NCBI RefSeq assembly: GCF_002994745.2
Contig: NC_037094.1
Coordinates: forward strand, 15,710,001-15,774,000
Source of the DNA: Rosa chinensis
Taxonomy: Eukaryota > Streptophyta > Magnoliopsida > Rosales > Rosaceae
Length of the DNA: 64,000 bases
Direction: 5' to 3'
The position numbers were made by a program, and so were the translations under genes. Every line of letters begins with the position of its first letter. The first letter of the stretch is position 1. The notes beneath the pieces were generated by a model that searched no databases, was not told the DNA's origin, and saw nothing but the letters and a program-made list of their open reading frames with translations. This document shows, in pieces, positions 1 through 25,531 of the stretch.

Positions 1-694
1 TGTAACTTGAATCAAAAGTAGTAAAGGTTCTGGACAAGAATCGAATTTAATTGAAGAGGATTGCAATTAGGTGGACTTTTCCATAACTAAGTTGTACACT
101 TGAGTTGATAGCCTTTCTCTATGTCTAATGCGTTGAACATGTCATGATTGACTAGCTTTCTAGGGCTTGATTGCATGTTTGATAGGATTAATCTAGGTGC
201 TTTCGCTTAGGTTAATTAGCATTGAAAAGTAAAATATGGGAAATCATTTGCTTTCGAATGTTTCACATGATCAACTCCTCTCTCATGACTTGGAAGAACA
301 ATTATAGGGTTTGAATCGAATTTGATTACATGGAATTGGTTTTGATTTTTGTTCCTTGCGTTCCACCCTTGTATATATGTTTTTACGTTTTCTTTATTTT
401 ATTTATTTTAATTTTAATTTTAAGAATCCTAATTCCCCCCTTATTTGTGTTTACTTGTATATATTTATTCTTTATTTTATTTTTGTAAATAATACTTTAT
501 TATTTTAATTCTTTATTTGTTTATACAATTGTATATATATATATTCTTTATTTTATTTTTGTAAATAATACTTCTCTTTATTTGTTTCACAATTACAGGT
601 GTACCCTCAATCCCCGGAATAGAACGATCCCTATTTGCTTATACTACTAACGATATTTCAGGGTTAAATTGCGCGCTTGCTTTTGAGCGCGTCA
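1..694 (+). repeat. 3' part of the left element's 5' LTR
   Basis: This stretch matches, in reverse complement, the part of the inverted LTR at about 3934-4620. It ends in CA at 693-694, five bases before the primer site. It is AT-rich with several TTTATTTT runs and carries no gene. The LTR start lies left of the window. Confidence 0.8.
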
Positions 695-699
695 ATTTT

Positions 700-717
700 T
701 GGCGCCGTTGCCGGGGA
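700..717 (+). other. Primer-binding site, tRNA-Asp type
   Basis: The 18-mer TGGCGCCGTTGCCGGGGA follows the LTR end and matches the complement of the 3' end of plant tRNA-Asp(GTC), the usual primer of Athila-like elements. The same site occurs inverted at 10696-10713. Confidence 0.85.
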
Positions 718-999
718 CGCGTGGGGGCATCAAACGAATCTCGAGGATCCGTGACAGACAAGCTATAGCCGAAAGCATGCCATAAATCCAGGAAAAGAAA
801 GGAATATTTACACGTGGGGGAGTTTCTTGGGCCGTGAACTGTCATAACTCTTCTCCTTCCCGGAGAAGCTTTGTTAAAACCCTGTGCTTGTTGAGATTTC
901 TACCCTATTTTGTGCTTTACATATACATCCTTTTTTGTCTCCTCCAGATTTTACTAAGGTTTGTCTAAGCGTGCAGTTTCAAATTCTTTCTACTTCCTC

Positions 1000-1530
1000 A
1001 TGGCTCGAACCAAGGTTACCCCTCGCAGGGGCGTCAATCAACGCCGTGTTCTCTCTTTGGAAGAAGAAGGTCGTCAAGCGGCCACTAGAGCTGGACTTAC
1101 TCGTCCATGGGACCATCGTCCTATCCGTGAGCGTACCCGCAGTCCCCCTCCTCTGCCTCGTCGCTCTCCCAGACTGCATCCCGGAGAGTCTTCTTCCTCA
1201 CCAGCTGCTCATGCTCCTCGGCCTATGGCCACCCTGGAAAGCTTGTCGGATTCGATTGATGATTTGCGTTCCTCTCTCCGCGATGGTATTATGGTGACAG
1301 ATTGGAGAGTCAATTGCATGATCGATTACATCTCTGAGATGAACTGCTCTTTGATCCGCTGTCATACTGCAATAAACAAGCTTGCTCAGGAAGTCAATAA
1401 CTTGCAGAGTTATCCTCCTGGGTTTCCTCGCAAGGACGCTACTGCATCACAACATGAGGACCCGCCTCTGAAGGCTGAAACCAGCAAGAGGGCTGCCACT
1501 CGCCCGCATACCGCTCCTCCAAAGGAGTAA
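1000..1530 (+). CDS. Conserved 176-aa retroelement ORF of unknown function (left copy)
   Basis: The frame is open further upstream, but the first ATG in it is at 1000, giving 176 codons. The N-terminal half is rich in Arg, Pro and Ser (residues about 10-75). Residues about 76-135 (MATLESLSDSIDDL onward) look helical and could form a coiled coil. The tail is polar and ends PPKE. I recognise no domain, and there is no CCHC zinc knuckle. A nearly identical ORF is encoded at 7594-8124 (about 9-10 differences by eye). It lies roughly 280 bases after the primer site, where gag would begin, so a degenerate gag or an accessory protein is possible, but this is inference. Confidence 0.6.
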   Translation: MARTKVTPRRGVNQRRVLSLEEEGRQAATRAGLTRPWDHRPIRERTRSPPPLPRRSPRLHPGESSSSPAAHAPRPMATLESLSDSIDDLRSSLRDGIMVTDWRVNCMIDYISEMNCSLIRCHTAINKLAQEVNNLQSYPPGFPRKDATASQHEDPPLKAETSKRAATRPHTAPPKE

Positions 1531-3696
1531 ATGGAGGTACAAGTCTAGGCTGAAAGACTTTAAACATTAAGCGCTGCATGGGAGGCAACCCATTTCAACT
1601 GTAGCTGTGGAGGAGACATCAAACGCAGATTTGCTTTCTTGAACTCTTCCTTCTATTTTATTTTCATGAATTTTAAGTTGTTTTAGGTTTCGTTGTGTTA
1701 ATTTTCTCTTCTATGCTTGATTTATGCTTTGCATGATTTATATTTGTTTATACATTGAGGACAATGCATGAATTAAGTATGGGGGAAGGGTTATTGCTTT
1801 ATTGTGTTTTTAGTAGTTAGTATATAAAGAAAAAAAAAAATAGTTGATGTTGGATTGTGTTTTAATTGATGTTGTGATACACTAAGGTATATTGGATTAA
1901 ACATAGTCTTGAAAAAGGGTAGCTGTTTCAGTCCCATTGCACATCGAGACTCCCTGTTCCCGTACCTAAGTGTTGAAATTAAATTAAATTGTTGAAAAAG
2001 AAAAAAAATAATTTTACTTTTGTTTTTGTTTTTGAGTCTTAGGATGCCCTTTCAACTGTCTAGGATGATTCTATATCTCTGAAATCATGATTAAAAGAGG
2101 ATCACAAAATTGAGATGATTTTTAAAATGGTATTCTTTGGTTAATTGAGATATATGAAAAATGCATGCATGTGTAGTGGATATGGATTTCGTAACCTTGG
2201 TACAGAATATGAGCATGTTAGGATGAGTTTTGATTCATAAAAGCCCATGTGAGATATTTGAGCCATGTCCCTTTTTCTTGGAGTGATAAATGAAAAACAT
2301 ATTCTTAATTTCTTGGCGATGTTTTGATGATCTCATTACTCTTTCATTTGATTGATTGCTTGCCATAGATTAAGTTTGATGGACTAGAGAATGCTATAAT
2401 TCGCTCTTGTGCTTGTTGAGACGTTTGTCAATACATGGCCCTGATTCTGGAAAGGATAGAGGCAACCTAGGAATTACCACCATTGCCAAATAAGCATGTG
2501 TCCCTATTTGTGCCCGTCATGGGACTCCCTTAGATAAACCCCTTTGAGCTTACATTAAGCCTTTTCTTTCATCACCCTTAAATCCTTAACCCTGAACCTT
2601 AGTATAGCTACACTCCTACCCTTTGTTCTAAAAACTTAGTGGAGCTATATTTTGGGACTTTACTTGAGGTTTTGGCATTGAGAAAGAAGATTGAGAAGAG
2701 GTGAAAGTTCAAGTGTGGGGGTAGACTTGTCCATGAAAAAAATTTGTGAAAGCCGTGAAAAATGAAAAGAAAAGAAAAAAATTGTGTACGGCTAGAAAAG
2801 AAAAGAAAGAAAAATGTTTATGGATTTTAGTCCCCCATACTTAGTGATTTTGGAGTTTACTTTGAACTGAAGGCCCACTACAGAAAAATTTGGCTTTTGT
2901 CCATTCCACTATAGTTCTAGGGAAGTTTACAATGAAGATTTGGCCCAACATGAAGACATTAGGCCCTTTTATGTTACCTCTAGGGAAAGTGACGTTTTTG
3001 CAATGCCTTGGTGGATTTCTTGAGGTCTCTACATCTACATGTGCTCTGCTAGGTTTTTAGGACACTTTGATAAATCCTTACCTTTCATTTCTTTAAACCT
3101 TGAGCCTTAGCCCCATTACAACCTTTGAGAAGACCTTCTTGATCCTTAAGATGGGACAGCCCTTGATGTGGAGATGAGTTACAAGAGTTGAACCTATGGC
3201 TTGGGTCCATCCGTGCAAGTAATTGATATCCTTCATGAGATCTTTTCAAAAAAATTATATTCACAAAGTGCTTTTCGTTTCTTATATATGTGAGCTATTT
3301 GATTGCCTCAAAATATTTTCTCTCACATATAATTGAGTGATTATAAGCTTTTAAGCATTGTCTTGAATTCTGAGAGAAGAAAGAGTGGATATACCTTGTG
3401 AGGATATGAATCATACTTGTTCGAAGCATGCTTAACAGAAACCATCACCATTATTACAACCAAGTCCTACTTGTGTATGTGTGGATTATATGTTTTAATT
3501 AACTCTTGAATATCTACATATTGATTCTTGGTTGAGTGCTAATCTTGATGTTGTGAAAGTAGGAGATTTCTGAGACAAAAAGTTGAAGGGCAATAGAGTC
3601 ATTGTTTTTGTAGAGTCTTTAATTTTCGTTGAGTCTTAGTGTGTGTCTTAGTGTGATTTTGCTAAGGGACTAGCAAAAGCTAAGTGTGGGGGAATT
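1531..3696 (+). other. Non-coding internal region and polypurine tract of the left element
   Basis: No sustained ORF is present. The stretch contains the motif GCGCTGCATGGGAGGCAACC at 1571-1590, several copies of AAGTGTGGGGG-like words, and the polypurine tract GTGTGGGGGAATT (3684-3696) directly before the 3' LTR. It corresponds in inverted orientation to about 5556-7590. Confidence 0.7.
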
Positions 3697-3937
3697 TGAT
3701 AGGAGCATTTTAATGCGACGTTTTAACTGCATTTCCCTACATTTCTTACGTTATTTCCTTATTAAAACCCTGTTTAGGAAAGTTTCCATTCTTTGATTGG
3801 GAAAGTTCCTATTTGTAGAAAGTTTATATTTTTGTAGTTTCTATTTATCATTTTTAGTAAGTTTCCATTTTCAGTTTAGAAAAGTTGCCATTTTTCATTT
3901 TAGGAAAGTTTCTATTTTTCTTATTAGTTTCTACTTT
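3697..3937 (+). repeat. Truncated 3' LTR of the left element
   Basis: It begins TGATAGGAGCATTTTAATG right after the polypurine tract, the same start as the other LTRs here. After about 240 bases it runs into the inverted end of the neighbouring LTR within a short shared CTTTTGGG. Beyond the first 19 bases it differs from the right-hand element's LTR, so the two belong to related but distinct subfamilies. Confidence 0.7.
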
Positions 3938-5555
3938 TGGGAAGCGCATAATTTAACCCTGAAATATCGTTAGTAGTATAAGCAAATAGGGATCGTTCTA
4001 TTCCGGGGATTGAGGGTACACTTGTAATTGTGAAACAAATAAAGAAAAGTATTATTTACAAAAATAAAATAAAGAATATAAATATATACAATTGTATAAA
4101 CAAATAAAGAATTAAAAATAAAGTATTATTTACAAAAATAAAATAAAGAATAAATATATACAAGTAAACACAAATAAGGGGGGGATTAGGATTCTTAAAA
4201 TTAAAATTAAAATAAATAAAATAAAGAAAACGTAAAAACATATATACAAGGGTGGAACGCAAGGAACAAAGATCAAAATCAATTCCATGTAAGAAATCCA
4301 ATTACAATTCATATAGTTGATTTTAAATGTCATGAGAGAGGAGTTGATCGTGTGAAACATTCGAAAGCAAATGATTTCCCATATTTTACTTTTCAATGCT
4401 AATTAACCTAAGCGAAAGCACCTAGATTAATCCTATCAAACATGCAATCAAGCCCTAGAAAGCTAGTCAATCATGACATGTTCAACGCATTAGACATAGA
4501 GAAAGGCTATCAACTCAAGTGTACAACTTAGTATGGAAAAGTCCACCTAATTGCAATCCTCTTTAATTAAGTTCGGTCTTTGCACAAAACCTTTACTACT
4601 TTGATTCAAGTTTACACAAAACGAAAAGTCGATTTCATGTTCTTAAACCTAGCACCATTCATATCAAAACCCTAAGTGTTTCGAACCACATAAGATTAAA
4701 ATACAAAAGTTTTCTATCATGCAAATTTAATTAAACAAACCCACATAAGCAACATAAAAATCAACATATAGAAATCACAACTTTATCTCAAAACATATAA
4801 ACGGGCTTTAAACTTTGCCCTTAACATTATTTGTTAACTAGAAACAAGTTCATATGAATTCAAACAAGGAAAACAAAAGATCATTACAAGGAAAAAGAAT
4901 GAATTACACCGTGAGGGGAGATGGAGATGGAGAGCTTGAACGTTGGAATCTTGAATCTTGGAAGCAAGTCTTCAAGGTGGACGATGGAGGCTATGTCCTC
5001 ACGGCTTCTTCTTCTTCTCTTTACTTGAAAATGCAAAACTAAGAACTAGAGAATGGAAAAGGAAAATGGAAAGGAAATGGAGAGACAAAGAAGATGAGAT
5101 GGATGAAGGAAGATATTTTGGAATGAGAGGAGAAGGTGTTTATATAGGGAAGAAAAAGAAGAGTGAAATGATGAGTGGAAGAAAAATAATGAAAGTGGAG
5201 TATGTTAGTGTGAGTAATGATGGAGAAAACATGATGATTACACCCTAAAACATGGAATGTTTTTGGGTGATGATGATGGTGGATTAGTGTGAGAAATGAT
5301 GGAGAAAACATGATGATTACACCCTAAAACATGGAATATTTTTGGGTGATGATGATGATGGATTTCCTACTCATTTACTTCAATTTTATCTCCACCATTT
5401 GTAGGTAAGTGTGGACATAATGCTCATTTCACCATCATTTACTCCAATGTACCTAAGAAAATAGAAATTGAGTTAAAAATTGATTCGTTAAGGAATTAAC
5501 TAAGCAAAATGTGAGGAATTAACTATTAAAATACCACATTAAAATGCTCCTATCA
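3934..5555 (-). repeat. 3' LTR of the right element
   Basis: About 1,622 bases, starting TGATAGGAGCATTTTAATG when read on the - strand from 5555. It matches 10719-14185 minus the nested insertion. One clear difference was seen (G at 4571 versus A in the other copy, at about 13201). Short ORFs here are identical in both LTR copies only because the LTRs are identical. Confidence 0.85.
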
Positions 5556-7593
5556 AATTCCCCCACACTTAGCTTTTGCTAGTCCCTTAGCAAAATCAAA
5601 ACACAAAACAAAATAAAGACTCAACAAAAAGTAAGTAAATGACTCTATTGCTCCTAACTGTTGTCTCAGAGACTCCAAACTCATGGCTTTCACGTTAAAC
5701 ACTTAATCAAAATCACAAAGATAATTCCAAGGTTAATAAACGTGTGACACTCATATGACTAAGTAAGATATGGAGAACTTAAGTTTTACAGTGAATGATA
5801 GCATGTTTCGAACAAGTCCAATCCAAACTCACAGGGCATACTCTCGATTTTTCTCTCAGAAATGGCTATGCTTAAAAGCTTCACACTCAAGTATATGCAA
5901 GAGAACAAATTGTAAGGCAACAAACAGCTTGCATATTTCATCAATATAAACATTTTGTGAAGAATTTTTAAAGACCTCATGAAATGACTAAGTGCACAAA
6001 TGGACCTAAACCATAAGCTCGACTGCGTAACTGACTCCACTAACCAAAGACTGCCCATCTCAAGGATCAAGTCAGCACTTAAAACAGGTTGTAATGGGGC
6101 TAAGCTAGGGTTTTCGAAATGAAGATTAAGGATACAAAAAATCCTAAGGACCTAGCAGAGCATATAAGGACCACCTTATGTCATCATTTTTGTAGACCAA
6201 ATATCATTGTTTTGGGCCAAACCTTCACTCTAACCAACATGGGAATGGACAAAGGCATAATTTTCAATTTTGAGCCTTCTACAAATTTGAAAGTCCAAAA
6301 CCAAACTTCAACAATTTCCCAAGAGTTTTCTTTTCAATTTTTCTTCTCTTTTGTCGCTTTTCTTTCTTTCTTTTTTTTTTTTTTTTTTTTTCAAGGCAAA
6401 ATTTTTTCTTTTTTTTCTTCTTGGATTTTCCCCACCCCACACTTGTCTTTCATCGTCACCCCTACATACTATGTCATGCTCTACTAAGTCCTTAAGACAA
6501 GGGTAGAGATATCCTGTACTAAGCTCATGGTAGGGTAGTGAGGGTGATGAAACAAAGGTTTTCAACGTAGGCTCAAAGGGGTTCATTCTAAGGAGTCCCA
6601 CGACGGGCACAATTGGGGACACATGCTTGTTTGGCTTTGGTGGTTACCCTAATGCCTTCTATCCTATCCAGGATCAGTGCATATTATGGCATACAAGTTT
6701 TGACAGTCACAACAGCCGAGTTCTAGTACTCTCTAGTCCATTAAAATCTATGGCACATGATCATTGGATTTTCAAAAGAATGATGAGGTTTTGCAAATAC
6801 AGCCATGAAATTCTAGAATTATCAATAAGCACTCGAAAAGAAAGTATTTTAGCACAAAAACTCACTTTGGGTCAAATGAATCAGACTTAATCCTAGCATG
6901 CTTAATGAACCAAGTTACAATCCTATCTCAAATCTTCATACAAACATCACAATGTCGATTAACCACAGAATTCAATTAAGTCCTATTTTGATTGTGAAAA
7001 CCTTCAGCCATGAATTCAGAGACATGTTCATCCTAGACGTTAGGAGCATCCTAAGACTCAAACACACAAAAACACTCTAAAACCAACATTTTTTTTTTTT
7101 TTTTTTTTTTTTACAATTTAATTTAATTTCAACACTTAGGTACGGGAACAGGGAGTCTCGATGTGCAATGGGACTGAAACAGCTACCCTTTTTCAAGACT
7201 ATGTTTAATCCAATATACCTTAGTGTATCACAACATCAATTAAAAACACAATAAAAACACAATCCAACATCAACTATTTTTTTTTTTTTTTTTTTTTTAT
7301 ATACTAACTACTAAAAACACAATAAAGCAATAATCATTCCCCCATACTTAATTCATGCATTGTCCTCAATGTATAAACAAATATAAATCATGCAAAGCAT
7401 AAATCAAGCATAGAAGAGAAAATTAACACAACGAAACCTAAAACAACCTAAAATTCATGAAAATAAAATAGAAGAAAGAGTTCAAGAAAGCAAATCTGCG
7501 TTTGATGGCTCCTCCACAGATACGGTTGAAATGGGTTGCCTCCCATGCAGCGCTTAATGTTTAAAGTCTTTCAGCCTAGACTTGTACCTCCAT
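5556..7593 (-). other. Non-coding internal region of the right element with polypurine tract
   Basis: The polypurine tract is at 5556-5568 (AATTCCCCCACAC on +). The rest has no convincing gene. It contains long T runs (6369-6390, 7089-7112, 7277-7299) and is the inverted counterpart of 1531-3696. The GGGAGGCAACCC motif is near 7537-7548 on the - strand. Confidence 0.7.
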
Positions 7594-8124
7594 TTACTCC
7601 TTTGGAGGAGCGATGTGCGGGCGAGTGGCAGTCCTCTTACTGGTTTCAGCCTCCGGAGGAGGGTTCTCATGGTGTGATGCAGTAGCGTCCTTGCGAGGAA
7701 ACCCAGGAGGATAACTCTGCAAGTTATTGACTTCCTGAGCAAGCTTGTTTATTGCAGTGTGACAGCGGATCAAAGAGCAGTTCATCTCAGAGATGTAATC
7801 GATCATGCAATTGACTCTCCAATCTGTCACCATAATACCATCGCGGAGAGAGGAACGCAAATCATCAATCGAATCCGACAAGCTTTCCAGGGTGGCCATA
7901 GGCCGAGGAGCTCGAGCAGCTGGTGAGGAAGAAGACTCTCCGGGATGCAGTCTGGGAGAGCGACGAGGCAGAGGAGGGGGACTGCGGGTACGCTCACGGA
8001 TAGGACGATGGTCCCATGGACGAGTAAGCCCAGCTCTAGTGGCCGCTTGACGACCTTCTTCCTCCAAAGAGAGAACACGGCGTTGATTGACGCCACTGCG
8101 AGGGGTTACGTTGGTTCGAGCCAT
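7594..8124 (-). CDS. Conserved 176-aa retroelement ORF of unknown function (right copy)
   Basis: The first in-frame ATG is at 8124, giving 176 codons like the copy at 1000-1530. By eye about 9-10 residues differ (for example K5N, R10S and changes near the C-terminus) and there is no frameshift or stop. The Arg/Pro/Ser-rich N-terminal half and the predicted helical middle are retained. Function is unknown. It is transcribed in the element's sense direction and is divergent from the WUS-type gene starting 612 bases away at 8736. An intact reading frame in both copies of an otherwise non-coding element suggests it matters to the element. Confidence 0.6.
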   Translation of the reverse strand: MARTNVTPRSGVNQRRVLSLEEEGRQAATRAGLTRPWDHRPIRERTRSPPPLPRRSPRLHPGESSSSPAARAPRPMATLESLSDSIDDLRSSLRDGIMVTDWRVNCMIDYISEMNCSLIRCHTAINKLAQEVNNLQSYPPGFPRKDATASHHENPPPEAETSKRTATRPHIAPPKE

Positions 8125-8321
8125 GAGGAAGTAGAAGGAATTTGAAACTGCACGCTTTAGACAAACCTTAGTAAAATCTGGAGGAGACAAAAAAGGATGT
8201 ATATGTAAAGCACAAAATAGGGTAGAAATCTCAACAGGCACACGGTTTTAACAAAGCTTCTCCGGGAAGGAGAAGTGTTATGACAGTTCACGGCCCAAGA
8301 AACTCCCCCACGTGTAAATAT

Positions 8322-8511
8322 TCCTTTCTTTTCCTGGATTTACGGCAATTAGGTCTGCTTTCGGCTGTAGCTTATCTGTCACAACTCCTCGAGAACCGTT
8401 TGGTTCCCCCACGCGTCCTTTCTTTTCCTTAATTTACGGCAATCATACCTGCTTTCGGCTGTAGCTTATCTGTCACAGCTCCTCGAGATCAGTTTGGTTC
8501 CCCCACGTGTC
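8322..8511. repeat. Two tandem copies of a ~95-bp unit
   Basis: Two imperfect units (about 8322-8416 and 8417-8511) share CTTTCGGCTGTAGCTTATCT and GGTTCCCCCACG. The left element has one such unit after its primer site (about 715-800, inverted orientation). The repeat lies between the two divergent start codons at 8124 and 8736. Confidence 0.7.
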
Positions 8512-8617
8512 CTTCACGAGCCAACAGCTTTTCCGTGTTTTCGGGTGACTTTAATCCAACGCGTAGATTTAATCTCAGAGATCGTCGATCCAACGGTGGA
8601 GATCTGCTCACTCGTTC

Positions 8618-8625
8618 TATAAATA
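8618..8625 (+). promoter_or_regulatory. TATA box of the WUS-type gene
   Basis: TATAAATA lies 118 bases before the ATG at 8736, a normal spacing for a plant TATA promoter with an ~85-base leader. It also argues against the in-frame upstream ATG at 8535, which would lie before the transcription start. Confidence 0.65.
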
Positions 8626-8735
8626 GGTGCATTCTGAGCGACTGTTCACTCCAAAAGAAAATTCTTCCGAGTTCCAGCCTTTCTCTCTCAACCCTTCAGC
8701 CTTTCTTTCGAAACTCAAATCCTTTCTTCATCAAC

Positions 8736-9395
8736 ATGGAACCACGAACTCTGCAACTAATGGAGTTACAAACCCAGCAACAAATGGAATTACAAGCCCA
8801 GCAACCAACCGAGGAGGGAGGAAGCATCCAAGCAGCCGGGAGTAGTAACCGGTGGGCTCCCACACCGCCTCAACTAAGAATCCTCAAGGGCCTTTACTAT
8901 GATAAGGGTTTTAAGTACCCAACTCCAGAGCAGATTCAAGAGATCTGCCTTCATCTGAAACAGTATGGGCAGATCGAGGACAAGAACGTCTTCTTTTGGT
9001 TCAAGAACCTCAAGGCTCGTGAGAGGCAGAAGTTGAAGGAATTTCGGAACGTTCGGGTTGGTGGCTCTCTCGATCTCAATTTTGGATCCACTAGTTCTAC
9101 TGATGATGGTAGGTCCATTGATCTAAACTTTGGTTCCACTGGTTCTACTAGTACTGACAGATCCATTGATCTAAATTTTGGGTCACGTGTCGGCTATGGT
9201 GTTGATGGATCGATCATGGAACAACGAGGAGAATATCACCAGGAGATTGAAACCCTTCCACTATTCCCCATGCATGGTGAGGACATCTTTGGCAACATGA
9301 AGACTACTTCCGAGGGAGGTAGCGGTTATGGCGGTGGCTCTCGCATTTCCCTTGAGCTCAGCCTCAACTCCTACGGAAATGCAGACATAGCTTAG
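8736..9395 (+). CDS. WUSCHEL-type homeodomain protein inside an LTR element, intronless
   Basis: The 219-residue protein has the WUS-clade layout. A short N-terminus beginning MEP is followed by a homeodomain at about residues 37-100 with recognition helix [16 protein letters not shown] (84-99), a WUS box TLPLFP followed by MHGED (173-183), and a C-terminal EAR-like motif LELSLN (206-211). Such proteins are nuclear transcription factors controlling stem cells, with the WUS box and EAR motif recruiting TOPLESS-type corepressors. Between homeodomain and WUS box are three S-[IL]-DLNFGS repeats (110-117, 127-134, 143-150). Two oddities stand in helix 3, where family members read WFQNHK: Lys replaces Gln at position 50 and Leu replaces His at position 52. 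No intron is seen although WUS genes normally have them. The start at 8736 was chosen because of the TATA box at 8618. It is antisense to its host element, so a captured copy is likely. Confidence 0.85.
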
Positions 9396-10695
9396 TATAG
9401 AGTATTTTTATTATTATTATTATTATTATTTTTTTAATTTTTTTTTTTTTGTAAATAGCTGAATTTAATAAGACTGAATAAATGCAGTTTTTTTTATATT
9501 TTTTTTATTTTTTTTATTTTTATTTTATTTTTTTATATTATTATTATTATTATTATTTTATATTATTTTTTTTTATATAAAGGACTCAAAAATAAAAGAC
9601 AAATATATATATAGGACTCAAAAATAAAAGAAAAATATATTTATAGGACTCAAAATGAAAGACAATTATATTTATAGGACTCAAAATGAAAGACAATTAT
9701 ATAAATCTCTTCCCCCACACTTAAATATTGCATTATCTTCAATGTAATCAATTAAAAGCATGCAATGAAATAAGTAAGCATAGATAGAAGACATTTACGA
9801 AAACAAATCCTAAAATAAAAACAATAGAGAAAAATTGAAAAATAAAAAGAAATAGGGAAAGAGAAAGCAAATCTGATTAAATTCTGAATTGGGTTGCCTC
9901 CCAAGTAGCGCTTGTATTTTACGTCTTGCAGCCAGACGGTACCTACATTAAATAAAGTTAGTAACTATAATTAACAAAGAAATACAAAATAAAAACAAGT
10001 ATAACTATTAATTACAAACTACAAGTATAATTAACAAGTATATTGTACATAAGACACAAGTTAAGTACTCAAGTGAGTATAAAACGTGAAAAGTATTTTT
10101 ACAAGTTTAAAGTGTGAAACAACAAAATAATTTACACGTATAGAGTATGCACAAGTATTTTTTTTGTTATAAACATTATTGATATCGAATCAAATTCCAA
10201 GCGGTAAATCAAGTGGACGTGCGGCCCAAGTATAGTCGCCTAGACACAAACTCCCTTTCAAATCGTTTGGGCAACCTTAGTGAAATGGCCAGGTGGGGGA
10301 GGACGAACACGAGAGGAAAAATCCATTTTGGCATGAGCTACTCCCACATAGTGGTTTAGGCCCATTTGCAAGCACTTCTGGATTCAAAAACCCGTCATGA
10401 ACGTTGTCCCCTTCCTAGACACCATTCCACATAGGCTATACTTACTAAGATGAAAAAGTTCATAAGTGTGAAGACAGTTCAACAAGTGTTAATAAAGGCC
10501 GCCCTCAACCTTAAGGGACCAGAGCTAGGTACCAATAAGGGGTTTAGGCCAATATTAACAAAAGAGACTTCACCTATTCCTCTCAATTTACAACCTACAA
10601 TTAAAATTCGTGTTCAATAATATAAATAATATTTAAACTAAGTTTTAAACAATTTATATACAATAAATGACACAATTTAGCAAGTGATTTTTCAA
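9396..10695. other. 3' flank of the WUS-type gene and further retroelement internal sequence
   Basis: Immediately after the stop are TTA repeats and T-rich runs with AATAAA at 9477-9482, a possible polyadenylation signal. At 9581-9703 there are four direct repeats of about 31 bases beginning AGGACTCAAAA. From about 9705 the sequence is again retroelement internal DNA on the - strand, including a second GGGAGGCAACCC motif (9890-9911), diverged from the one near 7540. No coding potential was seen at 9960-10695. Confidence 0.6.
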
Positions 10696-10713
10696 TCCCC
10701 GGCAACGGCGCCA
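10696..10713 (-). other. Primer-binding site of the right element, tRNA-Asp type
   Basis: The reverse complement reads TGGCGCCGTTGCCGGGGA, five bases after the LTR end at 10719. It fixes the element's orientation as - and shows 10719-14185 to be the 5' LTR. Confidence 0.85.
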
Positions 10714-10718
10714 AAAAT

Positions 10719-11315
10719 TGATGCGCTTTTGGGAAGCGCATAATTTAACCCTGAAATATCGTTAGTAGTATAAGCAAATAGGGATCGTTCTATTCCGGGG
10801 ATTGAGGGTACACTTGTAATTGTGAAACAAATAAAGAAAAGTATTATTTACAAAAATAAAATAAAGAATATAAATATATACAATTGTATAAACAAATAAA
10901 GAATTAAAAATAAAGTATTATTTACAAAAATAAAATAAAGAATAAATATATACAAGTAAACACAAATAAGGGGGGGATTAGGATTCTTAAAATTAAAATT
11001 AAAATAAATAAAATAAAGAAAACGTAAAAACATAGGATTAATTTCAGTTTACCCCCCTGAAGTTAGGGGTCGTCATCATGTTAGTCCCTCGAGTTTCAAT
11101 TTAATCAGTAACACCCTTGTACTCTCCAAATTCATCACCCGTGTCCAATTTCTACTATTCCGTCCAATTTTGACCGTTAAGTTTGACTTTTGAGGGCTAA
11201 AATGGTCATTTCAAGACAAAAAAAAAAAAAGAATTTTTTTTTCTTTTTTTCGTTTTTATTTTTTTGCATTTTTTTTTCTTTTTTTTTCTTTCATTTTCTT
11301 TTTCTTTTTCTTCGC

Positions 11316-11359
<44 letters not shown>

Positions 11360-12530
11360 TTTTAAATAATTTTGCCTTCAACCTATACACCACAAGTTAT
11401 AATAGGTTTATAAAAAAAAAAAAAAAACTCTAGGTGGTCAAAAAGCAGCTCGCTGGTCTACGATATTTGTGATATATCTCCGATAAAGCAACGAATTTTA
11501 GGATATATCCCCAATAAAATGAAGAAATATCTATAAAATATGATTAAAAAAATAAATACATATATTTCTTCATTTTATTGGGGATATATTCTAAAATTCT
11601 TCGTTTTATCGGAGATGTTCCACAAATATCGTAGACCAGCGAGCGAAGAATTTTAGAATATATCCCCAATAAAGTGAAGAAATATCTGTATTTATTTTTT
11701 TAATTATATTTTACAAATACTTCTTCACTTTATTGGGGATATATCCTATTATTCTTCACTTTATAAACCTATTATATTTTATATATATATTTTACAAATA
11801 TATCCTAAAATTTTTCGCTGGCTGGTTACAAATAAACCCTATAATAGGTTTATAAAAACAAAAACAAAAATACTCTAGGTGGTTAAAAAGTCGCTCGCTG
11901 GTCTACGATATTTGTGATATATCTCCGATAAAGCGAAAAATTTTAGGATATATTTGTAAAATAAATCTATAAAATATAATAGGTGTAAAATATATCCTAT
12001 AATAGGTTTAAAATATAGGTTTAAAATATAATAGGTTTAAATATAATAGGTTTAAAATATAAAATAGGTTTAAACCCTATCATAGGTTTAAAATATAAAA
12101 AATTTCGCTTTATCGGAGATATATCACAATAAAGTGAAGAATTTTAGAATATATCCCCAATAAAGTGAAGAAATATATGTATTTATTTTTTTAATCATAT
12201 TTTATAGATATTTCTTCACTTTATTGGGGATATATCCTAAAATTCTTCGCTCGCTGGTCTACGATATTTGTGGAACATCTCCGATAAAACGAAGAATTTT
12301 AGGATATATCCCCAATAAAATGAAGAAATATATGTATTTATTTTTTTAATCATATTTTATAGATATTTCTTCATTTTATTGGGGATATATCCTAAAATTC
12401 GTTGCTTTATCGGAGATATATCACAAATATCGTAGACCAGCGAGCTGCTTTTTGACCACCTAGAGTTTTTTTTTTGTTTTTATAAACCTATTATAACTTG
12501 TGGTGTATAGGTTGAAGGCAAAATTATTAA

Positions 12531-12568
<38 letters not shown>

Positions 12569-14185
12569 GCGAAGAAAAAGAAAAAAAAATGAAAGAAAAA
12601 AACAGAAAAAAAAAATGCAAAAAAATAAAAACGAAAAAAAGAAAAAAAAAATTCTTTTTTTGTTTTTTGTTTTTTTTTTTGTCTTGAAATGACCGTTTTA
12701 GCCCTCAAAAGTCAAACTTAACGGTCAAAATTGGACGGAATAGTAGAAATTGGACACGGGTGATGAATTTGGAGAGTACAAGGGTGTTACTGATTAAATT
12801 GAAACTCGAGGGACTAACATGATGACGACCCCTAACTTCAGGGGGGTAAACTGAAATTAATCCAAAAACATATATACAAGGGTGGAACGCAAGGAACAAA
12901 GATCAAAATCAATTCCATGTAAGAAATCCAATTACAATTCATATAGTTGATTTTAAATGTCATGAGAGAGGAGTTGATCGTGTGAAACATTCGAAAGCAA
13001 ATGATTTCCCATATTTTACTTTTCAATGCTAATTAACCTAAGCGAAAGCACCTAGATTAATCCTATCAAACATGCAATCAAGCCCTAGAAAGCTAGTCAA
13101 TCATGACATGTTCAACGCATTAGACATAGAGAAAGGCTATCAACTCAAGTGTACAACTTAGTATGGAAAAGTCCACCTAATTGCAATCCTCTTTAATTAA
13201 ATTCGGTCTTTGCACAAAACCTTTACTACTTTGATTCAAGTTTACACAAAACGAAAAGTCGATTTCATGTTCTTAAACCTAGCACCATTCATATCAAAAC
13301 CCTAAGTGTTTCGAACCACATAAGATTAAAATACAAAAGTTTTCTATCATGCAAATTTAATTAAACAAACCCACATAAGCAACATAAAAATCAACATATA
13401 GAAATCACAACTTTATCTCAAAACATATAAACGGGCTTTAAACTTTGCCCTTAACATTATTTGTTAACTAGAAACAAGTTCATATGAATTCAAACAAGGA
13501 AAACAAAAGATCATTACAAGGAAAAAGAATGAATTACACCGTGAGGGGAGATGGAGATGGAGAGCTTGAACGTTGGAATCTTGAATCTTGGAAGCAAGTC
13601 TTCAAGGTGGACGATGGAGGCTATGTCCTCACGGCTTCTTCTTCTTCTCTTTACTTGAAAATGCAAAACTAAGAACTAGAGAATGGAAAAGGAAAATGGA
13701 AAGGAAATGGAGAGACAAAGAAGATGAGATGGATGAAGGAAGATATTTTGGAATGAGAGGAGAAGGTGTTTATATAGGGAAGAAAAAGAAGAGTGAAATG
13801 ATGAGTGGAAGAAAAATAATGAAAGTGGAGTATGTTAGTGTGAGTAATGATGGAGAAAACATGATGATTACACCCTAAAACATGGAATGTTTTTGGGTGA
13901 TGATGATGGTGGATTAGTGTGAGAAATGATGGAGAAAACATGATGATTACACCCTAAAACATGGAATATTTTTGGGTGATGATGATGATGGATTTCCTAC
14001 TCATTTACTTCAATTTTATCTCCACCATTTGTAGGTAAGTGTGGACATAATGCTCATTTCACCATCATTTACTCCAATGTACCTAAGAAAATAGAAATTG
14101 AGTTAAAAATTGATTCGTTAAGGAATTAACTAAGCAAAATGTGAGGAATTAACTATTAAAATACCACATTAAAATGCTCCTATCA
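10719..14185 (-). repeat. 5' LTR of the right element, interrupted by a Mutator-like element
   Basis: After removing the nested insertion (11035-12863) and one copy of its target duplication, the LTR is about 1,629 bases. It begins TGATAGGAGC at 14185 on the - strand and ends in CA at 10719. It matches the 3' LTR (3934-5555) almost perfectly but keeps the seven terminal bases missing there. Confidence 0.85.
11035..12863. mobile_element. Non-autonomous Mutator-like foldback element nested in the LTR
   Basis: A perfect 9-bp target duplication AAAAACATA flanks it (11026-11034 and 12864-12872), and the uninterrupted site is seen in the other LTR near 4226-4234. The ends are inverted, starting GGATTAATTTCAGTTTACC, and the inverted similarity runs roughly 430 bases, to about 11470 and 12430, including a (TTA)n/(TAA)n run in each arm. 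The centre is built of several inverted modules sharing CGCTGGTCTACGATATTTGT and GGATATATCCCCAATAAA. There is no transposase. The 9-bp duplication and long inverted ends fit MULEs. Confidence 0.85.
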
Positions 14186-15106
14186 CTTATGCTCAGAAAT
14201 TTGGTGGTGGGTATTAGTATTACTGGTCCCGGGCATGCAGTACTTTACAACCTCAAAAAAGGTAGGGTCCTTGATATTAATATTGGATCCTATCTCCGGT
14301 ATCGTTCTTCTCTTGGATGGCTCATCCCACAAGAAGATAGGAAATATCTATTGCATCCTTTCAAAGACAAAAAAATTGTGCTGCCACTCTTTTTCAATGG
14401 TTCGGAAATAACGAAGTTTGTCTTATCATCTGCTCCTTCTCTGACATCAGATTACATAATCATGGTTGCTACTGATTACCTTAGAGAGTTCGCATTCTGG
14501 AGACCAAAAGACGATGCATGGACTATAATATCATCACCAGATCGCTGCTGGATGCCAGATGAAGGAAGATACGATATAGCTTATTATGAAGGACAATTTT
14601 ATATCGTGGAAAACGACGGCCGTGTCTTGGTTTGTGACATTGAGGACCCTAAGAAAGCAAAAACAAGGGTCGTTGTTTCAGAGATGCCAATTCTACATGA
14701 GATTGCCGAGAAATTATACCTGGTAAAATCGGCCGGCGTCTTATTGTTGGTTATCAGTCTTCGGGAACCATACAGAAGCACTAACTGGTTTAGGGTTTTC
14801 GAGGTGCCACTTAGTACTGGTAATTGGTCAAACTCAGTGGAGGTAAAGAACTTGGGGAATTGTGCCTTGTTTCTGAGTGAAAATAATTCTTCATTCTCTA
14901 TACGGGTCTCAGACTACTCTGCTTTGAAGGCCAATTGCATATACCACGCAGGTACGTGTTTGGGTGTTTTTAGCATGGAAGATGGAAAGATGGAGCAAAC
15001 ATATTTTTATAATTATGAATTTTTTGATTCAAAACAACCATATGCATGGATTCAGCAGTATGGATACAGCGGTGTTTCTATGGAGAATGAACTCACCCTC
15101 ACCTGA
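14186..15106 (+). pseudogene. F-box/DUF295 gene, 5' end removed by the retroelement insertion
   Basis: Homology to the sister gene at 21848 starts exactly at the LTR border (14186, CTTATGC). About the first 58 residues, including the F-box, are therefore missing here. The remaining frame is open for about 306 codons and encodes a DUF295 (KIB-type propeller) region: SSLGWL, YLLHPFKDKKIVLP, SDYIIMVAT, EFAFWRP, YDIAYYEGQFYIV, DGRVLVCDIEDP and PLSTGNW, ending with TGA at 15104-15106. Family members are substrate receptors of SCF ubiquitin ligases. Without the F-box this copy cannot do that unless the 5' part lies left of the window and is spliced across about 14 kb, which is unlikely. The body has no internal stop, so the disruption is recent. 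Confidence 0.8.
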
Positions 15107-19641: not shown

Positions 19642-21247
19642 TGTTGGAAAAGTGTGGCTTAGATTAGAGCCATTTGGAATCCCACATCAGAAAGGTAAAG
19701 AGTCATTCTTGGGTTATATGGACTGGTACCACACACACTAATGCCGAGGCCTTTGTATTAAAACCCCATACCCGTTCTGCATCGGGTGGCCAAAGTGGAG
19801 GGAGTATCGGCATTATTGGATCCGTGTGTGTGGGACTCATTTGCTGCTTTCGCACAAAAAACTGGCATCAGAGCTCTGGTTCTTAATTGGGAATTGATTC
19901 ATTGATTGGAAACCATGGTTGACGAGAAAAAGACAGGGGCTGAGTCTTCAGGTTCTTCGCGTTGGTCAACTTCCAGGCCATCAATTGGTAATGCCAAATT
20001 TGAACTTGAAAAGTTTAATGGCACCAAGAATTTTGGCATGTGGCAGTGTGAGATGATGGATGTCTTGTGTCAACAAGAATTGGATATAGGTCTGGAAGAT
20101 AAACCTATAGATATAGATGATGTGGAGTGGGCGAGAATTAACAAGTGGGCTTGTGGTTTTATCAGAATGTGCCTTGCTAAAGATAAGAAATTATTTGTCA
20201 TGAAAGAAACTTCTGCAAAAGAGTTGTGGAAGAAATTAGAAGACCAATATATGATCAAGAGTGCTGAAAACCGGTTTCACCTGAAGAGGCTGCTTTTTCT
20301 ATTTAATTCTCGATATGGTGTTTCAGTTTATGAACACATAAGTGATTTCAATAAGATACTTGCCGATTTGGCTAATTTGGATGTGCAAATTGGTGATGAG
20401 GACAAAGCTTTGTGTTTGCTAAATTCTCTTCCTGACGAGTACGAGCATTTGATTACAACTTTGTTTCATGGAAAGAATGATGTGAAATTTGATGATGTGT
20501 GTACAGAATTCATTGATAAATAATGAGTGCCGAAAGAAAGAGAAGCAACTTCAGAATGTGTTAGGTGAACCACTTGTAGTAAGAGGCAGATTTGATAAGA
20601 GAAAACCTACTAGAAAAAGAGGTAAATCTCGTTCCAAGTCAAGAAGTAAATGTCCTGCAAAAGATGAGTGTTCTTTTTGTCGCAACAAAGGTCATTGGAA
20701 GAAAGATTGTCCTAAGTTGAAGAATAGAGACAAGAAGGGTTCTGAAGTGAATGTTGTAAGAGATGATGAAGTCATCGACTTTGATTTTGCTTTGAGTTGT
20801 TCATCAGCTTTTGAAGATTTTGAAGACGATGAGATTGAGTTTGCTTTGGCTAGTTCATCTGCAGTTGGTTATTCTGACAAGTGGTATCAGAGCCCAAGTT
20901 ATGCTTCCCATTTGGATTGAGATCACAAGATTTGGAATTGGACTTGTGGTCAAGGTGGAGCTATTGGAATTCGGATCATGAGACAATTGAAGATGGCTCG
21001 AATCACATCAAGGTGGAGATTGTTGGAAAAATGTGGCTTAGATTAGAGCCCTTTGGAATCCCACATCAGAAAGGTGAAGAGTCATCCTTGGGTTATAAGG
21101 AATGGTACCACACTACCACACACACTAACGCCGATGCCTTTTGTATTAAAACCCCATACTCGTTCTACATCGGGTGGCTAAAGTACGGGGAGTATCGGCA
21201 TTATTAGATCCGTGTGTGTGAGACTCATTTGCTGCTTTCGCACAACA
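19642..21247 (+). mobile_element. Gag-only LTR retrotransposon (TR-GAG type)
   Basis: It is complete: a perfect 5-bp target duplication ATCGA (19637-19641 and 21248-21252), LTRs of about 220 bases starting TGTTGGAAAA (19642-19859 and 21021-21247), a primer site TGGCATCAGAGC (19863-19874, initiator-Met-tRNA type) and a purine-rich AAGGTGGAGAT before the 3' LTR. Between them lies only a Copia-type gag with a zinc knuckle. This is the layout described for TR-GAG elements, which provide a gag but need polymerase from another element. The gag frame is broken near 20500, so this copy is probably not autonomous even for gag. Confidence 0.85.
19915..20920 (+). pseudogene. Copia-type gag with zinc knuckle, one frameshift
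   Basis: The first frame starts at ATG 19915 and stops at 20523. It shows a Copia gag helical region (FELEKFNGTKNFGMWQ, then KELWKKLEDQY, then LCLLNSLPDEYEHLITTL). The reading then continues in the +1 frame from about 20490, with a basic stretch (KRKPTRKRGKSRSKSRSK) and a CCHC knuckle CSFCRNKGHWKKDC near 20672-20713. It ends at 20920 where a protease would begin; only a remnant of that junction is left. The frameshift falls just before the stop TAA at 20521-20523. This is a structural nucleocapsid-like protein of the element, not a host gene. Confidence 0.8.
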
Positions 21248-21252
21248 ATCGA

Positions 21253-21847: not shown

Positions 21848-22955
21848 ATGGCTGACTGGTCTGATCTTCCCCAGGATCTTGTTGTGTGTATCTGCCAAAG
21901 GATGGATTCCATGCAAGACTTCATCACTTTCGGCGCAGTCTGTAAAACATGGAGTTCTGCCGCCACCAAAGATAACTTTACTCGTGGGTTTACACATCAA
22001 GTTCCACTGCTTATCATGCCAGATACAGAGGACAATAATAGTCTTTTTCCCGGCCAGTGTTACAACCTCATAAAAGGTAAGGTTTCCAGACTTAATATAC
22101 CAAAGACTATCACTCAACGTCGTCTAATGCCCCGCTGTAGGTCTTCTCTTGGATGGCTCATCACCGCCTCATCTAGATTTTTGACTGATGATTCCAGACA
22201 TATATATCTGTTGCATCCTTTCAAACATGAAGAAATTGTGCTGCCAACCTTTGGGTTTGAGTTTAGGTTTATAAAGAAGTTTGTCTTATCATCCAGTCCT
22301 TCTCTGACATCAGATTACATAGTCATGGTTTCTACTTGGGTCCGATAGAAAGTTCGCTTTCTGGAGACCGAAGGACAATGGATGGACTACAATATCATCA
22401 GAACTAAATAATTGGGAATCAGAGACACGATCATATGATATAGCTTATTACAAAGGACAATTTTATATAGTTGAATGGGATGGCCGTGTGTTGGTTTGTG
22501 ACATTGATGACCCGAACAAAGCAGCAGTAAAGTTGGTTGTTTCAGAGATGCCAAATAATCTAGTGTCTAATGATAGCGTACAGCAATTGTACCTGGTGGA
22601 ATCAGGTGGCGCCTTACTGTTGGTTTTCCGGCTCAAGAACACTTATCGAAATGGGTTTAGGGTTTTTGATGTGCCACTTAGTACTGGCAATTGGTTGGAC
22701 GCGAAGGAGGTAGAGAACTTGGGGAATCGAGCCTTGTTTTTGAGTTTGAGCAATTCTTCATTCTCTATCGAGGTCTCAGACTACTCTGGGTGTAAGGCCA
22801 ATTGCATATACTTTGCACGTCATCTTGGTTCTGAATGCACTCCGACCTGTACAGATCTGGGTATTTTTGGTATGAAAGATGGAGAGGTCGAACCATTCAC
22901 ACCGAAATCCTGTCGCGTTCAACAACCATATGTATGGACTCAGCGGACTTTTTGA
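21848..22955 (+). pseudogene. F-box/DUF295 gene, frameshifted
   Basis: The first frame starts MADWSDLPQDLVVCICQRMD, a clear F-box (residues about 4-45), and continues into the DUF295 region to a TAG at 22346-22348. The sister gene continues through this point. Here the reading resumes one frame over (KFAFWRP from about 22350) and runs without a stop to TGA 22953-22955. A one-base indel near 22340-22352 therefore breaks the protein, at roughly residue 166 of about 368. It could be a real mutation or a sequencing error. An intact gene would encode an SCF substrate receptor with a C-terminal propeller. It is a tandem duplicate of the gene at 14186-15106, with TR-GAG and other inserts between. 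Confidence 0.8.
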
Positions 22956-23464: not shown

Positions 23465-25531
23465 TCATGAGACTCCCAACAGCGTCTTTATGCCATGCTG
23501 CACAAAAAGTACGATATCAAAAGGTTATGTTGCACAGACACCAGAGAACTCTACTCATGATCGATCAACCACACCAAACAGCACAGGCAACACAACAAAA
23601 CTAAAATAAAAAACCAGACATATGGTTTTACCTCGAGGCTAAGGGCAGCAGTTGTAGGGTAATAGCGATCAGCAACCTTCCCATCTCTGTCAACTAGAAA
23701 CTTGGTAAAGTTCCACTGAATATCATCTTTAAAGAAACCCCATTTGCCTAACTTCAAGAACTTGTACAGTGGAGCAGAGTTATCACCATTTACTTCAATC
23801 TAACACAAGAACAAACGAGGGTCAAATTACAAACCACATTTCACATTATACAATGACCATGAAGCTATTAGATTCTAGTTGAAATAACCATAGAGGAACA
23901 GCAGGTATAAACTTTCTCAAGTTGCAAAAGTTCAACACGAATTACAAGTAATTGGTCATTTAGTACTTACTTCTACTAGTCCAGTTGATTTGACCTAAGA
24001 CTTATAAACAGAGCTATCCTCTAAATGAAGGAAACGAGTTTTGCATGCTCATAGATGGAAATGCCATTCCACATTATTTACAGAAACAATAATGAGCTCG
24101 TGGTTGCAAAACCTTATGACTGACAGAAAATTGTAACAGGTGTGAGCAACGGGAGAGTTAATGCTACATCATTTTCAGTATCTACCTTGTCAAATATCGG
24201 AAATTCTGATTTGAAACGAGTGCAGACAAACTCTTCAATCTCTTCATTACTTCCCGGTTCCTGTGCACCAAACTGATTGCAAGGAAAAGCTAGTATCTCG
24301 AATCCTGTATCAACCACAGTGAATCACACAAAAGGGAAAAATTATGAAAAAGGTGGATTCAGAGCTTTTGAACTAGATATAATACATTTGAAAAAGAAAT
24401 TTCTGATTTACACTAGGAGGATTCTTGTTTCTCTAATAAAGTTGGACCATTCCATATGCAAAACGGTGAAAATCTATAAGAAAATTAAACAAGCAGAAGA
24501 TTTGCACATTCTAGAGAGAGGAAGTCAATGGAATCAAGAAATGTAACCCACATGTTAAAAATAAAAAACTCGATGGTGTCAGCTCAAGAATACAGTTCCT
24601 AAACTGGTTAACATATTACAGTCTCCAATGGTTCTCAAAATGATAGGCATGAAAGAACAATAGTAGTTCAAAATTCAAACCTTGATCTTTATACTTTTCA
24701 TATAGTTGATTCAGCTCCGCGTAGTTTGAGTTTGTCAGTCCACTGCAGTAAATCAGAGGAAAAGAAATGAAAAGACAATAGCTTTTCTATTTCTTACAAA
24801 GAAGAAAAAAATTGAGAAGCTACAGATACGAAGATACCATTTGGAAGCAACATTGACAATGAGCAGAACTTTTCCCTTGTAAACGCTAAGATCCACATCA
24901 TTCCCCTTAGCATCCTGCACTAACATTCAAATTAATATCTACCCCAAGAACATTAATTTCTCGACTCAACCCAACTTCCCACATAGTTTCAACACAAACC
25001 AAACATTCTCACATTCCCAATCGCGATTCTCCATATGTTTCAAATTTCAGGAACTCAGTGGATCAAAAACAGTTGCCTATCCCTCTAAGTAATTGTTGAA
25101 CATTAGGTAAACACTAAGAAGGGACATCTTCCTGAATTGAGGGGGTGCTTTTAGAGATTATACTTCAACAGTTGTCACCCCTGAACCCACCAAAGATGGT
25201 TAAGTTAGGGACGATCAGTCCAATATAGTGCTCTAAACCTTTCAATAATAATGCTTCTTTCTTGACAATCAACTAGACTAGACTAAAGAAGATCATATCT
25301 CAAACATGTTAAAAAAGGAAGCACCTATCATTCAAAGTTTTCTTCTAAATTTTGACATGGTCAACACAATCACATACGGTCAAAACTACCCAGAGCTATT
25401 AATATCTAAATTTTGAAGAACACTTCAAGACACAAGTAGAAAGACGCAGCAGAAAAGCATAAACTAGTTGAACATCGGCTTACCTTGACAGTGAAGTCGT
25501 AGATCGTCTTTGGGGCCTCAGTGGTCGCCAT
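23465..25531 (-). CDS. Glutathione peroxidase, plant thioredoxin-dependent type (copy A)
   Basis: Six exons on the - strand: 25484-25531, 24838-24914, 24681-24742, 24186-24304, 23632-23799 and 23465-23497, all GT-AG, giving 168 residues. The enzyme reduces H2O2 and lipid hydroperoxides using thioredoxin. Catalytic Cys42 is split between exons 2 and 3 (KCGLTNSNY). The catalytic Gln is Q73 in FPCNQFG, with Trp131-Asn132 in WNFTKF. Cys71 and Cys90 (EFVCTRF) are the other two conserved Cys, the latter the usual resolving residue. It starts MATTEAPK with no transit peptide, so cytosol is likely. Exon lengths 77, 62, 119, 168 and 33 are identical in all three GPX genes here. A local change, WGFFKDD near residue 122-128, differs from the [12 protein letters not shown] form of its sisters. 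Confidence 0.92.

Follow-up and report, generated by a model that had tools for sequence, protein, structure and literature searches.

A WUSCHEL-derived homeobox gene carried antisense within a rose LTR retrotransposon and its likely bearing on the rose WOX expansion

Results

The homeobox gene at the locus

The window analysed here is a stretch of 64,000 nucleotides of Rosa chinensis (assembly GCF_002994745.2, contig NC_037094.1, positions 15,710,001 to 15,774,000 of the forward strand), and coordinates below refer to it. It holds a homeobox gene of the WUSCHEL (WUS) type, a WOX gene, lying antisense inside a long terminal repeat (LTR) retrotransposon without gag and pol (element 1), next to a sibling without the gene (element 2). 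The gene and its signals are as follows:

8618..8627, plus strand: TATA box TATAAATAGG, starting 118 bp upstream of the ATG (sequence match)
8736..9395, plus strand: WUS-derived homeobox gene, 219 aa, no interruption (open reading frame, Pfam, PDB-sequence and fold matches)
8847..9035, plus strand: homeodomain, residues 38-100 (Pfam match, AlphaFold2 model)
9069..9182, plus strand: three LDLNF/IDLNF motifs, residues 112, 128 and 144, within a 48-bp tandem repeat
9252..9269, plus strand: WUS box TLPLFP, residue 173
9348..9365, plus strand: C-terminal EAR-type motif SLELSL, residue 205
9477..9482, plus strand: candidate poly-A signal AATAAA (sequence match)

The open reading frame (ORF) at 8736-9395 (plus strand) comprises 219 codons with no internal stop. 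By its homeodomain, WUS box and C-terminal EAR-type motif it is assigned to the WUS-type WOX genes from sequence: the protein matches the Pfam homeodomain PF00046 (E=5.1e-10), and its closest PDB sequence is WUSCHEL (6ry3, E=2.2e-21), followed by STENOFOLIA (6wig, 6.7e-19). In the AlphaFold2 model only the homeodomain is confident (mean pLDDT 83-93 in the blocks covering residues 41-100, 58.4 overall), and Foldseek ranks a WUS-homeodomain chain (6ryd, E=2.0e-06) first for this model. The initial annotation of this DNA, made from the letters alone, had read the ORF as carrying a WOX homeodomain, a WUS box and an EAR-like motif and had named the lack of a WOX match by hidden Markov model as evidence that would count against it; the Pfam match supports the reading. 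We take SLELSL and LDLN to be EAR-type repression motifs.

The same annotation had proposed a TATA box and a possible poly-A signal. Both sequences are present, with a second AATAAA at 9591. When the 226 bp preceding the ATG were dinucleotide-shuffled 2000 times, TATAAAT turned up in 0.25% of the shuffles and CTATAAATA in none. As promoter and poly-A signals, these are sequence matches only. The stop codon is followed by an AT-rich low-complexity tract, and a clean poly-A tail is not present there.

The host element

The components of the host element, together with its sibling, are:

1..3933, plus strand: element 2, sibling without WOX, its 5' LTR cut by the window edge and its 3' LTR truncated
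3934..14185, sense on the minus strand: element 1, gag-pol-less LTR retrotransposon carrying the WOX gene (LTRs, primer-binding site, polypurine tract)
3934..5555, minus strand: 3' LTR of element 1, 1622 bp, terminal 7 bp gone
5556..5572, minus strand: polypurine tract (PPT), containing GTGTGGGGGAATT and preceding the left LTR on the minus strand
7594..8124, minus strand: sense ORF (MART...), 176 aa, without known domain
8322..8509, no strand assigned: 94-bp leader unit, doubled in element 1 (89% alike), single in element 2
8510..10695, plus strand: WOX cassette, absent from element 2, between primer-binding site and leader (ends approximate)
10695..10713, minus strand: primer-binding site (PBS), 5 nt past the right LTR on the minus strand
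10719..14185, minus strand: 5' LTR of element 1, 1629 bp excluding a nested insertion
11035..12863, no strand assigned: nested foldback transposon inside the 5' LTR, 1.8 kb, with a 9-bp target duplication AAAAACATA

Element 1 is structurally near-complete. Its LTR ends are of the TG...CA type, save that 7 terminal bp are absent from the left LTR, and the LTR pieces show no mismatch in 309 and one in 1322 aligned bp (1/1622 if the common 9 bp are counted once), which bears out the near-identity noted earlier. Assuming a substitution rate of 1.3e-8 per site per year, the insertion would be some tens of thousands of years old, with a wide error. The foldback element that splits the 5' LTR, which we take to be MULE-like, has inverted ends of 199 bp at 98% plus further arms and internal repeats, and its insertion postdates that LTR. 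The initial annotation's placement of the gene within an element is upheld by LTRs, PBS and PPT, with the qualification that the left LTR is short of 7 bp and the right one interrupted.

The PBS is presumably complementary to the 3' end of a plant tRNA-Asp; the 64-kb window holds no tRNA genes. Because of where the PBS and PPT lie, the sense of element 1 is the minus strand, and the WOX gene on the plus strand is therefore antisense, as had been claimed. The claim that gag and pol are missing also stood: when all 24 internal stop-to-stop ORFs of at least 60 aa were compared with Pfam (the two main ones in part), none of the 24 showed a gag, pol or other retroelement domain. The 176-aa sense ORF gave Pfam matches below the cut-off only; its relatives form five clusters, and the two with a species name are both from R. 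chinensis.

A sibling without the gene

Element 2 has a PBS at 700-717 that is near-identical to that of element 1 and is directly followed by the leader unit CGCGTGGGGG.... The two elements match through the GGGGA of the PBS, and the leader unit resumes in element 1 about 2.2 kb later; the WOX cassette is an extra segment that starts at the PBS edge. Since the distal part of the cassette (about 9710-9949) is 69% like element 1's own 7337-7594, the cassette may have passed through a related, older element. Between the two elements the sense ORF differs at 17 of 528 nt (3, 3 and 11 by codon position; dN 0.024, dS 0.060), small numbers that would fit mild constraint.

These data bear on the possibility, also raised by the initial annotation, that this is an ordinary host WUS locus around which a retroelement was assembled or inserted. 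Such a view could draw on the irregular left junction, where 7 bp of the LTR are gone and a target duplication was not found. It is contradicted by the position of the cassette inside both PBS and PPT, the near-identical LTRs and the existence of a sibling without the cassette, as well as by the length of the protein (219 aa, where Fragaria and Argentina WUS have 296-299) and its hundreds of near relatives, and we regard it as extremely improbable.

Rosa relatives and descent from WUS

The initial annotation had proposed counting further copies. Among the 120 of 185 matches listed in a search with the window protein, 66 clusters are Rosa-type and 54 come from other plants. The former comprise 47 R. 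chinensis clusters (315 members), 16 from R. rugosa (51) and three further ones (11), so that R. chinensis and R. rugosa together hold at least 63 clusters with at least 366 member sequences. The members are not mere repeats across databases, since clusters with a single member are in many cases held by three sources. The R. chinensis clusters among the matches listed spread over contigs of seven chromosome-scale sizes. The earlier suggestion of a rare gene capture is therefore retained as to capture by an LTR element, but a lone event does not fit so large a Rosa family. Within the window, other WOX relics amount to two stretches with E=0.50 and 0.84, and a comparison of the protein with viral and prokaryote contigs gave 6 and 43 pattern matches and no relatives.

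For a tree, 68 rows were selected: the window protein, 36 R. chinensis, 13 R. rugosa and three other Rosa-type rows, and 15 other WUS proteins; the outgroups were WUS only, other WOX subgroups being left out. A single branch (SH-aLRT 92) separates all 53 Rosa-type rows from the rest, and these are nested with Fragaria and Argentina WUS in a set with support 100; 30 of the 65 inner forks are open. Because all sampled Rosa-type rows group beside Fragaria and Argentina WUS, the donor was a WUS gene of the Rosa lineage. Argentina WUS shares a 20-residue C-terminal block with the window protein letter for letter, and Fragaria WUS has it almost unchanged; judged by this block and by a tree whose outgroups are WUS only, the gene descends from WUS. 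As to a processed origin, the ORF is uninterrupted, but the deleted middle of WUS could have held an intron.

A table of 68 rows (the 66 Rosa-type clusters plus P0126 and P0165 from a search with Fragaria WUS) gives TLPLFP in 56, SLELSL in 53 and both in 49; at least one LDLNF/IDLNF motif is found in 44 rows, and two or more in 30. Much of the WUS middle is kept by P0048-like forms and gone from the window type. Read from these sequences, the WUS stretch GGSI(S/T)HNFGS seems to have turned into a 10-residue LDLN unit that was then repeated. Homeodomain position 50, presumably a specificity residue, is lysine (codon AAG) in the window copy; across the table it is glutamine in 49 rows, valine in seven, and lysine, alanine, arginine and glycine in one each, with the motif missing in eight. 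The window protein may for this reason bind other targets.

Among the 120 of 2370 matches to Fragaria WUS listed, there is no full-length canonical Rosa WUS; the Rosa models found there are partial or diverged (P0126, P0165, P0048), the closest being P0126 with 192 aa. Perhaps the canonical gene is masked as a repeat in the annotation, or has been replaced. RcWUS of Rosa canina has been studied and, from what is accessible of that report, may be the host gene or an element copy (PMC4855734).

The published expansion of rose WOX genes

The WOX genes of R. chinensis number 381 according to Duan et al. (2024; PMC11405225). Clades I-V, found in roses only, take up 364 of these; chromosome 2 carries 226 of the 381, and members lie on all seven chromosomes; the counts for R. 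multiflora and R. rugosa are 170 and 105. The motif of clade V, the largest, ends as P0014 does in the portion of that motif available, and P0014 matches 93% of the window protein at 87% identity. The authors propose whole-genome duplication, yet give zero collinear pairs and call for further evidence, and the stem "transpos" does not occur in the main text. Whole-genome or segmental duplication as the driver, with the element in the window as a separate curiosity, is thus their hypothesis; it has to contend with that absence of collinear pairs, with a near-identical protein inside a mobile element here and with the scatter of R. chinensis clusters among the matches listed over contigs of seven chromosome-scale sizes, and it appears highly improbable to us. 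In the open-licence literature, judged by titles and the openings of abstracts, we found no link drawn between retrotransposons and the multiplication of WOX genes in roses (most preprints and subscription articles fall outside this scope); PMC6786968, PMC6747050 and PMC9182980, in their accessible text, hold nothing on the rose element, and Rosa1 (PMC9100400) is described there as an insertion near genes, including the wuschel family, and not as one with such cargo.

Motif-biased conservation

Across 22 aligned copies, variation is lower at homeodomain, LDLN, WUS-box and EAR positions (0.042) than elsewhere (0.109), and none of 218 circular shifts was as extreme. Ancestral constraint adds to this conservation. 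By region, the variation is 0.023 in the recognition helix and 0.008 in the EAR motif, far below the 0.121 of the N-terminus and the 0.182 of the tail.

It is possible that the gene is an inert passenger, a WUS copy caught by chance and silenced with the element that brings no benefit and is intact simply because it is young; we hold this to be an evenly balanced proposition. Since the LTRs are nearly identical, there has been little time to decay, and hardly any expression was seen in rooting cuttings for 359 of the 364 rose-only WOX genes (PMC11405225). The low variation of the recognition helix and EAR motif is not what a passenger would predict, nor is the expression of the remaining five of the 364 genes, in what is a single tissue context in that report.

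Alternatively, the gene could be selected cargo, such that a WUS-like protein made in meristems or reproductive cells aids transmission of the element. The predicted TATA promoter of its own and the motif-biased conservation point this way, as does an LTR-linked WOX burst in Vigna (PMC10714607). Against it stand the near-silence of most copies in the sole published context (PMC11405225) and the Vigna report itself, whose accessible text gives neither subtype nor promoter. We consider selected cargo rather unlikely.

WUS-type binding sites were also compared with expectation in the LTR, element body and cassette. None of the 18 tests survives correction, which agrees with a passenger; TTAATTAA in the LTR (4 seen, 0.5 expected, p=0.015) is lost over the 18 tests.

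Neighbouring features

The rest of the window contains several further features. KIB1-4 beta-propeller ORFs lie at 14174-15106 and 21848-22955; the second has an F-box start, and the first has none and is cut off at the right end of element 1. A Copia-type gag ORF at 19642-21248, enclosed by direct repeats of 93 and 109 bp (92-94% identity), may represent a small LTR element with gag alone. At 24094-28496 lie tandem copies that have diverged (84-90% repeats), one of them with a glutathione peroxidase match (27802-28221). A 708-aa ORF with hAT transposase domains lies at 31592-33718, and an exostosin GT47 ORF on the minus strand at 62761-63969.

Discussion

We consider it very probable that a rose LTR element resembling a large retrotransposon derivative (LARD) took up an antisense WUS copy and that repeated rounds of copying gave rise to the hundreds of WOX genes confined to roses; we see retrotransposition as the likely cause of the expansion. 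In this scenario, a non-autonomous element would have acquired a copy of the host WUSCHEL gene with its own promoter at the edge of the PBS, enzymes supplied in trans would have copied the WOX-carrying element, and repetition of this process would have placed other family members in such elements as well. The encoded protein would be a shortened WUS in which homeodomain, WUS box and EAR motif are intact and an LDLN array has been added. If expressed, it would most likely act as a compact WUS-like repressor, while most copies are probably silenced passengers.

One known route of gene capture is template switching among packaged RNAs (reviewed, in the part available, in PMC13317346), and it would be expected to leave a captured mRNA in the sense of the element. 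The antisense orientation of the WOX gene disfavours a simple switch of template to a sense WUS mRNA; together with a predicted TATA promoter, it would be better explained if the gene was inserted as DNA or if the captured transcript was itself antisense.

Several points weigh against the retrotransposition scenario. The LTR context of a Rosa WOX gene was seen at one locus only, and the clusters of the sense ORF are far smaller (the largest has 18 members) than the WOX family; since this ORF has so few annotated members, many copies may sit in other element families. No target-site duplication of element 1 was found, the right flank CTTAT being unmatched at the truncated left end, which the lost left terminus could explain. 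The left junction is irregular, with the truncated LTR of element 2 adjoining the 7-bp-short LTR of element 1 (3697-3945), possibly a rearrangement or an assembly misjoin. The conservation was computed from annotated proteins only, which favours intact copies, with functional positions chosen after the per-region table was seen, and in that table the WUS-box region, at 0.063, is near the linker at 0.075. The published tree sets clades I-V apart from the WUS clade, and the almost silent state of 359 of the 364 rose-only genes in rooting cuttings, a single context, comes from the same source (PMC11405225).

The retrotransposition scenario offers a concrete cause for an expansion that was published unexplained (381 genes in R. 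chinensis, 170 in R. multiflora and 105 in R. rugosa; PMC11405225), and it cautions that transposon cargo may be entering the counts of rose WOX surveys. In that case the series of Rosa copies, which runs from WUS-like forms to shortened ones with amplified LDLN units, would document the evolution of a developmental gene after its capture and mobilisation. Together with the Vigna report, the rose case raises the testable question of whether plant retrotransposons gain from carrying a stem-cell regulator. A bolder scenario, which we regard as distinctly unlikely, is that elements of Rosa and Vigna, two unrelated plant families, took up WOX independently and multiplied to hundreds or thousands of copies because a mobile WUS-like repressor with its own promoter enlarges the stem-cell lineage that forms gametes, or helps the element to reach it, being selected for germ-line transmission. 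If true, WOX-carrying LTR elements would be the plant analogue of an oncogene-carrying retroelement.

Four known systems invite comparison. The WUSCHEL proteins of Fragaria vesca (P0059) and Argentina anserina (P0056) share with the window protein the homeodomain, WUS box, EAR-type motif and C-terminal block, whereas the window protein is 219 rather than 296-299 aa long, has lost the middle, has gained the LDLN array and lysine at position 50, and is mobile. The RcWOX family, as far as its description goes, shares the C-terminal motif of clade V with P0014, a close relative of the window protein, and differs in that its expansion was left unexplained and clades I-V were drawn outside the WUS clade (PMC11405225). 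In Vigna, according to a meeting report (PMC10714607), WOX is amplified in V. marina and V. riukiuensis, with more than 1000 copies in the latter, mostly between identical LTRs with target duplications. WOX has multiplied there as in Rosa, but in another plant family, and the available text states no WOX subtype, orientation, promoter or element family. Since in the tree the Rosa copies join the WUS proteins of Fragaria and Argentina, the two bursts would likely be independent. Finally, gene capture by plant LTR retrotransposons has been catalogued with 672 captured genes in rice and 1343 in sorghum, in an article whose main text, as available, does not use the word homeobox (PMC3726574). As in those captures, the rose gene lies between LTRs and would have multiplied with its element; unlike them, the rose case concerns a single transcription-factor gene, antisense and with its own predicted promoter, that has hundreds of close relatives.
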